Shown one piece after another: positions 17,174 to 27,679 of a DNA stretch of 34,827 bases. The DNA is taken from NCBI GenBank assembly GCA_012838355.1, contig DUPJ01000120.1:1-34827 (forward strand), written 5' to 3'. This DNA comes from Clostridiaceae bacterium. GTDB lineage: Bacteria; Bacillota; Clostridia; Saccharofermentanales; DTU023. The position numbers were made by a program, and so were the translations under genes. Positions within the stretch are counted from its first letter, which is position 1, and each line of letters begins with the position of its first letter. A model generated the notes under the pieces. It saw only the letters and a program-made list of their open reading frames with translations, had not been told where the DNA came from and searched no databases.

Positions 17174-17731
17174 ATGAACAGGCGTGTGCGCGATATAACC
17201 TGGGCCGCGATCATTGCGGCGCTTTACGTCATCCTGACGCTGGTGCTGGCTCCGATTTCATTCGGCATTATCCAGCTGCGGCTGTCGGAGGTGCTGACCG
17301 TGCTGCCGGTTTTTACCCCGGCGGCGGTTCCGGGCATCATGCTGGGCTGTCTGCTGGGAAATCTTTTAAATCCTCAGAATCTGGGGCCGATCGATATCAT
17401 ATTCGGGACGGGAGCCAGCGGGTTGGCCGCCTGGCTGACGTATCTTTTAGGAAAACGCTACCGCCGGATAAAGAAAACGGCCGCTGTATATGAGCAGAGG
17501 CAGGTCATGCTGGCGCGGATCGCCGCGCTGCTCCCGCCTGTTATCGTGAATGCGCTGATTGTCGGCGTCTATCTGCCGTTTCTCCTGCTCGAGCAGGTGA
17601 CCGCGGCTGTCGTTCTCCTGAGCGTATTATCCCTTGCACTATCGCAGAGTGTCGTCCTGCTTTTGCTCGGCTACCCGCTGCTCGTCAATATTGAAAGAAG
17701 CCCGCTGGCGCTGATGATGGAGCGAACATGA
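17174..17731 (+). CDS. queT: QueT-family transporter (queuosine-precursor ECF S component)
   Basis: A 185-residue integral membrane protein of the QueT family, substrate-binding S components of ECF transporters thought to import queuosine precursors. Seen: RDITWAAIIAALYVILTLVLAP, the family-type opening, then IQLRLSEVLTVLPVFTPAAVPG and GCLLGNLLNPQNLGPIDIIFGT, and about six helices in all. The AAGG before the ATG at 17174 is weak. No preQ1 riboswitch is apparent upstream. The stop overlaps the next start as ATGA. The shared ECF energising module is not in this window. Confidence 0.86.
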   Translation: MNRRVRDITWAAIIAALYVILTLVLAPISFGIIQLRLSEVLTVLPVFTPAAVPGIMLGCLLGNLLNPQNLGPIDIIFGTGASGLAAWLTYLLGKRYRRIKKTAAVYEQRQVMLARIAALLPPVIVNALIVGVYLPFLLLEQVTAAVVLLSVLSLALSQSVVLLLLGYPLLVNIERSPLALMMERT

Positions 17732-18351
17732 ATCATTATTTTTCGAAATCACCCGAAAGCCGCCACGAAATCCGCGATATTCGCTTCGACTTTGCCGGAC
17801 AGCGTTATGTGTTTGCAACGGATCGACAGGTGTTTTCCAGACAGCATGTCGATGACGGAAGCCGTTATCTGCTGGACACCATGGCTGCGGCAGAACGCAA
17901 CTTGCCGGAACATGAACACATGCGCGGACTCGATCTCGGCACCGGTTACGGACCGGTCGGCATCGTACTGGCCAAACACCTGAATATCCGCATGGTTCTT
18001 TCCGATATCAATGAACGGGCGCTCGCGCTGGCTGCACAGAATGCCGAGAGAAACGGTGTGGCGGATCGGACCGATACCGTACTGTCAGACGGCTTGTCCG
18101 CGATTGACGGCGATTTTGACATCATCGCAACGAATCCGCCCATCCGCATCGGCAAGAAAGCCATCTACCGCATGTGGCAGGATGCAGTCGGGCGTTTGAA
18201 GCCGGCCGGCCGCCTGTATATGGTAATTCGCAAGCAGCAAGGAGCCGAGTCTGCCGTAAAATACCTGAAGACGCTGGCCGATGATGTGGCGGTGCTGGAC
18301 AAGCGCAAAGGGTACTGGATGCTTTGCCTGACCAAAGGCGGCGGTTCTTGA
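17728..18351 (+). CDS. Class I SAM methyltransferase, RsmC/YbxB-like
   Basis: A 207-residue methyltransferase. Seen: an N-terminal strand region ending in FATDRQVFSRQHVDDGSR, motif I LDLGTGYGPVG, an acidic motif LSDINERALALA, and the catalytic TNPPIRIGK. The N-P-P motif marks enzymes that methylate exocyclic amines; the arrangement matches the small RsmC-like proteins (YbxB in Bacillus), predicted to act on guanine in 16S rRNA. It overlaps queT at the start and ispF at the end, so all three are probably translated from one mRNA. RNA target is by family only. Confidence 0.87.
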   Translation: MNHYFSKSPESRHEIRDIRFDFAGQRYVFATDRQVFSRQHVDDGSRYLLDTMAAAERNLPEHEHMRGLDLGTGYGPVGIVLAKHLNIRMVLSDINERALALAAQNAERNGVADRTDTVLSDGLSAIDGDFDIIATNPPIRIGKKAIYRMWQDAVGRLKPAGRLYMVIRKQQGAESAVKYLKTLADDVAVLDKRKGYWMLCLTKGGGS

Positions 18352-18824
18352 TTCGGGTTGCGCTCGGACAAGACAGCCATCGTTTTTGTGACGAGCCATA
18401 TCCTGAGGGCCGGATGCTCATTCTGGGCGGTGTTCTATTCGCGGACGAACCGCCGCTGGATGGGAACAGTGACGCCGATGTCATCTTGCATGCGCTGACC
18501 AATGCGATCTCAGGCATAACCGGCGTACCGGTTCTTGGTGCAGCGGCTGACAGGCTGTGTGCGGCAGGGGTAACGGACAGCCGGGCCTATGTTCATGAAG
18601 CGCTTGCCGATTTGACCGGCACGATTCAGCACGTGTCGATATCGATTGAGGCTGCGAGACCAAAACTGCTGGCACGCATCCCGGAGATAAGGCAGTCCGT
18701 CGCTTCGATCCTGAATATCGACAAGGCGGGTGTCGCTGTGACGGCTACCAGCGGCGAAGGCCTGACCGCCTGCGGCCGGGGAGAAGGCATCGCGTGTCTG
18801 TGTGTGCTTACGGTTACCGACTGA
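18348..18824 (+). CDS. ispF: Divergent 2-C-methyl-D-erythritol 2,4-cyclodiphosphate synthase (IspF)
   Basis: A 158-residue IspF-family protein; IspF makes the cyclic diphosphate intermediate of the MEP isoprenoid pathway. Seen: GQDSHRF with metal ligands Asp9 and His11, LDGNSDADVILHAL with His48, and a C-terminal TATSGEGLTACGRGEGI block. The usual DIGxxFPDxD segment after the second metal ligand, which contacts substrate, is replaced by GVPVLGAAADRLCAAGVTDS. The start is TTG at 18348, overlapping the methyltransferase TGA (TTGA), which gives the usual length. ispD is in this window too, but 14.5 kb away. It may be an IspF with an altered loop, or a relative with another role. Confidence 0.82.
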   Translation: MIRVALGQDSHRFCDEPYPEGRMLILGGVLFADEPPLDGNSDADVILHALTNAISGITGVPVLGAAADRLCAAGVTDSRAYVHEALADLTGTIQHVSISIEAARPKLLARIPEIRQSVASILNIDKAGVAVTATSGEGLTACGRGEGIACLCVLTVTD

Positions 18825-25517: not shown

Positions 25518-25548
25518 AGCCCGCTTCCCGACGAAAGCGGGCTTTTTT
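25518..25548 (+). terminator. Intrinsic terminator after the Ig-like gene
   Basis: AGCCCGCTT (25518-25526) and AAGCGGGCT (25535-25543) form a perfect 9-bp stem, with six consecutive T from 25543. It closes the preceding unit before a new promoter at 25564. Confidence 0.92.
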
Positions 25549-25563
25549 CTCCTATTCGCTTCC

Positions 25564-25592
25564 TTGACACAGGGCGGCCGCCATCTTAAAAT
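25564..25592 (+). promoter_or_regulatory. Consensus sigma-A promoter of the 85-residue protein gene
   Basis: TTGACA (25564-25569), a perfect -35, and TAAAAT (25587-25592), one mismatch from the -10 consensus, are 17 bp apart. Such a strong promoter normally needs a repressor; a LexA-type operator begins 2 bp after the -10. Confidence 0.85.
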
Positions 25593-25593
25593 A

Positions 25594-25607
25594 CGAACAT
25601 AAGTTCG
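25594..25607. promoter_or_regulatory. LexA (SOS) operator
   Basis: CGAAC, four bases (ATAA), GTTCG: a perfect dyad matching the Gram-positive LexA/DinR box CGAAC-N4-GTTCG. It covers the predicted transcription start. LexA bound here would block the promoter and DNA damage would release it. I see no other full box in the window. Confidence 0.85.
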
Positions 25608-25625
25608 ATTTATTTGGAGGGGAAC

Positions 25626-25883
25626 ATGAGTCGAAAAGTCGTAGTTGATGTCGTCGCATCGTTCCGATCGGGGAAGATTATCCCTATGAAGCTGACCTGG
25701 CCGGATGGCCGTGCCTTTCGCATTGACCGGGTGCTGGACGCCCATATCGGCCCGTCCAAATCGGGTGGCTTCGGCATGCGCTATACGTGCCGCATTCTGG
25801 GAGCAGAAGTGCTGCTCTATTACGATGAAGTTGAGCAAATCTGGTGGTGTGACGGCAAGGAAGAGCAGGCGGGCGGCTTTTAA
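25626..25883 (+). CDS. Small 85-residue protein under SOS-type control
   Basis: I do not recognise a named family. The protein is soluble, without signal peptide or membrane helix: VVVDVVASFRSGKIIPMKL, then WPDGRAFRIDRVLDAHIG, GMRYTCRILGAEVLLYY and EQIWWCDG, which looks like a small all-beta (barrel or SH3-like) fold. I chose ATG 25626, with GGAGGGG at 4-5 nt; a TTG at 25614 would use the ribosome binding site itself. It stands alone between a terminator and a convergent gene whose stop overlaps its own by 3 bp. The consensus promoter and LexA box make it a likely DNA-damage-induced gene. Small beta proteins beside Y-family polymerases are a possible comparison, from memory only. Confidence 0.82.
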   Translation: MSRKVVVDVVASFRSGKIIPMKLTWPDGRAFRIDRVLDAHIGPSKSGGFGMRYTCRILGAEVLLYYDEVEQIWWCDGKEEQAGGF

Positions 25884-27679
25884 CCGAACACCTGGTTCAG
25901 GATGGACAGCGACGTGATCAGGGTTTCTTTCAGGCTGTCCATTTCTCTCAGACAGCGCTCGTATTCCTCGTCCCGGTCATACGTGGACGGCGGTTCCTGG
26001 CTGTCATAGATTTTTAGCAGGACCTGAGCCAGAATGATATAGCGGCGTTTTGAGAACTGTTTTAATCCGTCCATGAAGACATCGGTTTTATTCAGAGCGA
26101 CGGCTCTCGGCAGGGCGATGATGGCGGCTTCGATCTCCGTATAGTGCGACGAACATGATTTGAAAATATGTGACATGGTGTCCAGCTTGTCTCTGTACAT
26201 GCGCGCCTCAGTGCGATGCTTCAGCCCTTCCTCATTCAGATGTTTCAAGCCGCGGCTCGACCAGATGAACAAGAGGCCGGGAAGCAGAAGCAAATATGCG
26301 GCCGCCGTACCGGTTAAAAAGATCATGGTGAGCGCCGTCAGCACGATTGCTATGCCAAAGATCAAGCCCAGCAGGCCGGCATACCATGACTTGCGGCGAT
26401 CGAGCAGACGCATGTTGTCAAAGGATCTCTTGAGTTCAGTTTCCATCTGCCGAACACTATCGGCGAAGCGACTTGCGTTCTTCTTGTTTCGCTTGTAATT
26501 CTTGACCTGAATGGCCGATGCAGCCGGATCGCCGTCCGTGATTTCACCGAGGAACCAGTGCAGCAGGAATACTTCGAACGAAGAGTAGCGGGAGTAGTCA
26601 ACCCGATCGGGATGCCGCCATGTGAACACATAACCTTCCATCTTCAGCGTGCGGCGGTTTGTCAGCCTGAGCAAGGTGGACAAAATCAGCGGTCCCAGTT
26701 TTTTCTTGCCAAGGATCTGTGCCACGGCAAGCGGCGGAACGCGTGACGGCCAGAGCGCATAGTCGGGACCGGGACCGCGCATCATGCCTTCGCGCTCGAA
26801 GCGGAGGTAATAGAGAATCCAAAACAGCAAAGCTGCCAGGAACCAGATTGGCTGGACGGCCGAAAGCCGCGTCGTCATGGTTCCGCGCGCCAGTGCGCGT
26901 TCCGAAGCCAAAACGGCCGCGTCAATCTGTTCGGCGGCCGTTCTTGTATCGGACGAAGCATCCAATTCAGCAAAAACAGAAGCCGGCAAGGTGAGAAACA
27001 GCCGTGCATCGTCACTCTGACTCAGCGCTCCGGCACTGATACGGAATGTTTGAACTTCGTCAAATGTGTACTGAACCGGCGTTTCACTGACAAAAAGCAG
27101 CTGGTACTCGGAATTCTGCAAGGGCTGCGGCAAAGTCAGGCTCATGGTTCCAGTCTGCATGCCGGCTTTTCGGGACGGGAAGAAGCGCAGCCTGAATATC
27201 GCGGTATCCTCCGTTTGCAAAACGGTATTCGCCAGCGTGTAGCTGATCCGGATGATCCAGCGCCCCGGATCAAACTGCCCCGTGATATTCAGCGTCTGCC
27301 GCTCGGCGGATGGAGAAGAAATCTCATATGAATACGGAGCGCGACCCTCATCCGAAGTCGCATCATAGCGCAGGATTTTCGTGAAAAGAGCCGGTGCCAG
27401 ATCGCTTTCTGCTTTGGCGGCATCGATCGTAAAGTCAGTTATCCGACCTTGCAGCGGCGCGACAACATCGAGCTGAAATCGGCGCATGCCTGTTTCGCTT
27501 GTGATCTCGTACTGTTCGACAATTTCCGCCTGTCCGCCGGAGAGCAGATCAATATCGATGTGGACACGCCGAATGTCATGGCGGCGCGCTCCGAAACCGA
27601 AAACCGGCGCACCGAAACATGCCGTCAGGAGCGGCAGGATGAGGAGGCAGGCGGTGATCAGGCGGCGCAATTTCGGCAT
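25880..27679 (-). CDS. DUF2207-like predicted membrane protein
   Basis: A 599-residue protein resembling the DUF2207 family of unknown function. Seen: signal peptide ending LLTAC, which fits a lipobox with Cys21, a beta-rich external domain of about 240 residues starting RRVHIDIDLLSGGQAEIVEQYEI, a membrane helix near 285-303, a cytoplasmic domain with WRHPDRVDYSRYSSFEVFLLHWF, two helices (about 430-480), and a long helical C-terminal part. No GLY/SER-rich tail of the usual DUF2207 type is present. The ribosome site before ATG 27679 is weak (GGAAAG). It has no close partner: the neighbours are convergent and divergent. Confidence 0.68.
   Translation of the reverse strand: MPKLRRLITACLLILPLLTACFGAPVFGFGARRHDIRRVHIDIDLLSGGQAEIVEQYEITSETGMRRFQLDVVAPLQGRITDFTIDAAKAESDLAPALFTKILRYDATSDEGRAPYSYEISSPSAERQTLNITGQFDPGRWIIRISYTLANTVLQTEDTAIFRLRFFPSRKAGMQTGTMSLTLPQPLQNSEYQLLFVSETPVQYTFDEVQTFRISAGALSQSDDARLFLTLPASVFAELDASSDTRTAAEQIDAAVLASERALARGTMTTRLSAVQPIWFLAALLFWILYYLRFEREGMMRGPGPDYALWPSRVPPLAVAQILGKKKLGPLILSTLLRLTNRRTLKMEGYVFTWRHPDRVDYSRYSSFEVFLLHWFLGEITDGDPAASAIQVKNYKRNKKNASRFADSVRQMETELKRSFDNMRLLDRRKSWYAGLLGLIFGIAIVLTALTMIFLTGTAAAYLLLLPGLLFIWSSRGLKHLNEEGLKHRTEARMYRDKLDTMSHIFKSCSSHYTEIEAAIIALPRAVALNKTDVFMDGLKQFSKRRYIILAQVLLKIYDSQEPPSTYDRDEEYERCLREMDSLKETLITSLSILNQVFG

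Follow-up and report, generated by a model that had tools for sequence, protein, structure and literature searches.

A LexA-box-preceded 85-residue protein of a Clostridiaceae bacterium as a predicted divergent relative of standalone ImuB-C

Background

What does a gene of 85 codons do when it stands alone behind a strong promoter and a predicted LexA (SOS) operator, and when no model of Pfam or NCBIfam recognises either its product or the family to which the product belongs? Such a gene is found in a stretch of 34,827 nucleotides (hereafter the window) from a draft genome of a Clostridiaceae bacterium. A sequence-only reading of the window had put the gene forward as a possible new member of the SOS response whose function could not be named, and had guessed that the protein might be a polymerase accessory.

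The domain that enters into this question is ImuB-C, which has been tied to SOS mutagenesis and to DinB (PMC3765255, PMC6511836, PMC12926913). The 2013 description reported SRAP, M78 peptidase and Ku/ligase as neighbours of standalone ImuB-C (PMC3765255), and a study of 2026 describes ImuB-C as a beta-barrel unlike SH3 and with no relative in the PDB (PMC12926913).

By examining the promoter region, the predicted fold and profile of the protein, and the distribution and surroundings of its homologues, we hypothesize that the gene encodes a LexA-repressed, divergent standalone ImuB-C-like protein that works with DinB (and RecA) in trans as an accessory subunit; we give this reading a probability of about 0.78.

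Results and discussion

A near-consensus promoter with a predicted LexA operator

The features of the locus are collected in Table 1. The sigma-70 promoter (25564-25592) matches the consensus at 11 of 12 positions, in keeping with the near-perfect promoter of the sequence-only reading, and the operator CGAACATAAGTTCG starts one base after the -10 hexamer (not 2 bp, as had been stated) and overlaps the expected transcription start. The operator is the perfect palindrome that had been described, and it is the only exact match in the window, where shuffling gives an expectation of 0.04. Across the 2.06-Mb draft genome the bare 14-mer palindrome shows no enrichment (8 sites, the reversed control having 10), so the case for operator function rests on position and conservation rather than on the motif alone. 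The open reading frame (25626-25883) begins with ATG and is monocistronic, which with the hairpin to its left bears out the earlier picture of a lone small gene closed off by a terminator; its end overlaps the convergent gene (25880-27679) by 4 nt, in the stop region of the DUF2207 gene. Elsewhere in the window, a low-complexity open reading frame with SVSASVSS-type repeats (43-588) lies near the contig edge, and there is probably no real gene in that frame.

Table 1. Coordinates of the features of the locus within the window
Feature	Position	Strand	Remarks
Small-domain methyltransferase gene	17728..18351	+	methyltransferase-ispF-polY-family gene order contiguous in relatives
ispF	18324..18824	+	directly upstream of polY and family gene in relatives
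Intrinsic terminator-like hairpin with T tail, end of upstream gene	25518..25543	+	9-pair stem, 6 G-C
-35 hexamer TTGACA	25564..25569	+	
-10 hexamer TAAAAT	25587..25592	+	17-nt spacer
Predicted LexA (SOS) operator CGAACATAAGTTCG	25594..25607		perfect 14-bp palindrome
Shine-Dalgarno GGAGG	25616..25620	+	read from the sequence
Gene for 85-aa ImuB-C-like (DUF6504-related) beta-barrel protein, predicted Y-family polymerase accessory subunit	25626..25883	+	
Convergent DUF2207 membrane-protein gene	25880..27679	-	homologue adjoins family member at the same place in relatives

LexA boxes in the genome and before homologues

The absence of a LexA gene had been named beforehand as a finding that would speak against SOS control; lexA is present in the genome (194.8 bits, cut-off 110.95), and shortly ahead of its start lies CGAACTATTGTTTG, a near-box. 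The recA gene is preceded by the LexA-like box AGAACAAATGTTTG, and the box AGAACATAAGTTCT stands 18 bp before a Y-family polymerase (dinB) gene on another contig (C100), sharing the core GAACATAAGTTC with the operator of the window. Another LexA-like box, GAACACATGTTC, precedes an sbcD-like nuclease gene by about 40 bp (L108:1501-1512, contig C42), and the second Y-family gene (contig C61) has no strict box within the stretch fetched. As a separate observation, a perfect CGAACAATTGTTCG (L101:4130-4141, contig C108) and a deoxycytidylate deaminase-like open reading frame, a possible further SOS gene, lie about 30 bp apart.

Of the 49 homologues with no polymerase gene before them, 25 have a strict box in the 200 nt upstream, and 36 have one when a single end letter of the box is relaxed. 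Among control open reading frames from the same loci, the strict box is found in 4 of 347 (Fisher p 4e-22, a value that overstates independence, as the rows are related). Homologues that directly follow a polymerase gene have no box of their own (0/48), and a box is found at the polymerase start in 28 of 47; where two family copies flank a polymerase, the box stands before the first small gene. The predicted box is thus a marker of the head of the transcription unit in family loci. Homologues without the box had also been named beforehand as a finding that would speak against SOS control, and some exist: in five operons of one genus (g3) the 250 nt at the polymerase start contain none, and some other loci likewise lack one. 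Taken together, a lexA gene with its own box, boxed recA and dinB genes, and homologues that are boxed or lie inside boxed polymerase operons make SOS control of the 85-residue gene, as originally proposed, well supported at the level of sequence, from which we infer LexA binding and induction by DNA damage.

A predicted beta-barrel related to DUF6504

With 50 homologues supplied, AlphaFold predicts a beta-barrel of seven strands (pLDDT 91), in line with the small beta fold that had been expected. A PDB fold search with this model gave no significant match, and a PDB sequence search with the single protein gave nothing useful; in a viral library, one phage protein was found by fold (TM 0.71, E 1.3e-3). 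When the family was aligned by hhalign with 26 DUF6504 (ImuB-C) sequences, the match reached 93% (E 2.7e-7, score 40.9), the highest score among 200 column shuffles being 21.0 (12%) and that of the reversed control 13.3. The AlphaFold models of the family and of DUF6504 agree in strand order, in the sense of strand succession only. A search with PF20114 (DUF6504) of the genome itself and of the family members gave none over the cut-off, and the best match of a DUF6504 search in 98 relatives was a member of the 85-residue family, below the cut-off (E 0.034 in one genome).

The 85-residue protein is best read, from these profile and model comparisons, as a divergent standalone relative of ImuB-C, unannotated and ordinary in kind. 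The earlier label of a new SOS gene without a known function is not supported, as the domain to which the protein is related is already tied to SOS mutagenesis and DinB; the guess of a polymerase accessory was right. Like standalone ImuB-C, the protein is a small predicted beta-barrel without a PDB match, carries the W/P/V-L-D pattern in the hhalign alignment, and appears to be under SOS control, its relatives occurring in operons with DinB/Pol IV, SRAP, M78 peptidase and Ku/ligase. Unlike standalone ImuB-C, the family escapes the Pfam model and lacks the WW-GE-EK-FYRV segment of clostridial DUF6504, and the gene in the window is solo and away from any polymerase, while in some relatives two copies flank one. 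The systems in which the domain forms a fusion with a Y-family protein that is catalytically dead have in common with it the related domain and the Y-family tie, but here the protein is separate and an intact-looking DinB is available in trans.

The family is present in 47 of 98 related genomes, and its profile is matched by 29 of 398 genomes sampled across the phylum; an Oscillospiraceae MAG, the single relative that one scan of genome contigs gave, and an Oscillospiraceae plasmid are among the named carriers. Among the 398 genomes the family and DUF6504 occur together in 1, with 6.9 expected, a weak hint of mutual exclusion because phylogeny confounds the comparison. It is conceivable, though we hold it somewhat doubtful, that the family forms an unnamed group of its own, a sister of ImuB-C specialised for clostridial DinB-type polymerases. 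Its members would be third subunits, induced by the SOS response, which read the C-terminal tail of the polymerase and occur single, solo or as flanking pairs; the paired form would then give the polymerase two different small subunits.

Genomic surroundings and positional history

In most loci the family gene lies directly downstream of, and on the same strand as, a gene for a Y-family polymerase of the Pol IV/DinB type, and this adjacency is found in 16 of the 29 family-bearing genomes of the phylum-wide sample. In one genus (g4), two diverged family copies flank one DinB-type polymerase (L062, L063, L067, L069, L073, L078, L081, L091-L094), and in most of these operons the first copy is preceded by one or two LexA boxes. 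On the Oscillospiraceae plasmid (L128, CP141730.1) the gene begins 13 bp after one for 'DNA polymerase IV', with SIR2, DNA ligase and Ku nearby, and in two phage records (L129, L130) and a contig of a relative (L072) it has a divergent Y-family polymerase in its vicinity; a metalloprotease gene stands immediately before it in L129 and L072, that of L072 being of the M78/IrrE type. Apparent fusions of polymerase and family protein in the GC-rich L074, L075 and L077 were rejected, as each consists of two genes in different frames.

Many family copies stand alone with no adjoining polymerase, solo boxed copies being common among relatives, and other neighbours include SRAP, an AddB-like nuclease, Ku with an ATP-dependent ligase, and an M78/IrrE-type peptidase. 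The solo copies, together with the SRAP, Ku/ligase and AddB-like neighbours, would also suit a protein that binds DNA, recognises damage and brings in repair enzymes generally without being a dedicated polymerase subunit, the role proposed for ImuB-C in 2013 (PMC3765255). We regard such a role as unlikely, since the dominant neighbour is the Y-family polymerase and published models have ImuB-C contacting other proteins, namely DnaE2 and ImuA (PMC12926913, PMC11791113).

In same-family relatives, the methyltransferase, ispF, polY and family genes are contiguous and are followed by a convergent DUF2207-type gene. In the window, the methyltransferase-ispF pair (17728-18824) is retained, as is the convergent gene (26-27% identity to the genes of relatives); no polymerase gene is present at the locus, where a branched-chain amino acid transporter operon sits between the ispF pair and the gene. 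Because the flanks are conserved and the polymerase is missing, the gene is best read as a positional orthologue of the second gene of the polymerase operon, served in the window by a LexA promoter of its own.

A probable DinB partner elsewhere in the genome

The DinB encoded on contig C100 ends in AENIIHPVAYGR, and polymerases that adjoin family genes have related tails, for example ENVIHPIGFFGP or DHVIHPVGFF, a strict form of the pattern matching 33 of 48 and missing 15 of 48. Among 36 genomes scanned, a polymerase with the tail pattern was found in 10 of the 12 with the family and in 1 of the 24 without it (p 3e-6, with phylogeny as a confounder). Given this association, the C100 DinB is the likely partner of the 85-residue protein, and the two may make contact through its tail. 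A Pfam model related to RecA-NT, DUF4113, has no match to the polymerase tails, so the RecA-NT-like motif is one recognised by eye only. The one genome with the tail and without the family is of the same genus (G001): it has a boxed dinB with the tail and no detected family member, so that the subunit may be dispensable or its gene may lie in an assembly gap.

The absence of polY directly upstream, where the relatives have it, and the missing family gene of G001 might together suggest that the gene is an orphan remnant of polymerase loss at the locus, still expressed and without a partner. This appears improbable, given an intact open reading frame with conserved residues retained, a near-consensus promoter and a perfect operator, a boxed dinB with a related tail available in trans, and frequent solo boxed copies among relatives. 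Very improbable is membership of, or analogy with, the YolD/UmuD group of small subunits (SH3-like barrels): although the setting, that of a small SOS gene next to one for a Y-family polymerase in Gram-positive organisms, is the same (PMC6511836), and the protein would likewise work as a small SOS-induced polymerase partner as YolD/YqjX (PF08863) and UmuD' do, YolD homology was rejected at an hhalign value of 0.3%, the long N-terminal arm of YolD is absent, and the genome has no PF08863 match.

Proposed mechanism

In the accessory-subunit reading, LexA bound at the operator over the transcription start would repress the gene; upon DNA damage, RecA-stimulated cleavage of LexA would free the operator, and the beta-barrel protein would be made together with the LexA-controlled DinB-type polymerase from the other contig. 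As a small accessory subunit of that polymerase, it would then take part in a translesion complex (DinB-RecA-ImuB-C), docking probably near the C-terminal tail of the polymerase, past the RecA-NT-like region; the binding to DinB, the docking site and an effect on mutagenesis are inferred, as are the regulatory steps. The operator and promoter, the boxed relatives, the linkage to polymerases, the homology to DUF6504 and the beta-barrel model support this reading, and counting against it are the lack of a Pfam or NCBIfam match, a partner that does not adjoin the gene here, the genome G001, and the boxless operons of g3.

Conclusions

Neither Pfam nor NCBIfam contains the family, although it is present in about half of the relatives searched, and naming it would allow an SOS mutagenesis factor to be annotated in clostridial relatives. 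A hypothetical gene of 85 codons thereby becomes a testable component of translesion synthesis. Damage-induced mutagenesis is poorly known in such anaerobes, and the solo copies, of which the gene in the window is one, would offer a clean way to ask whether Pol IV requires the small subunit in order to function.
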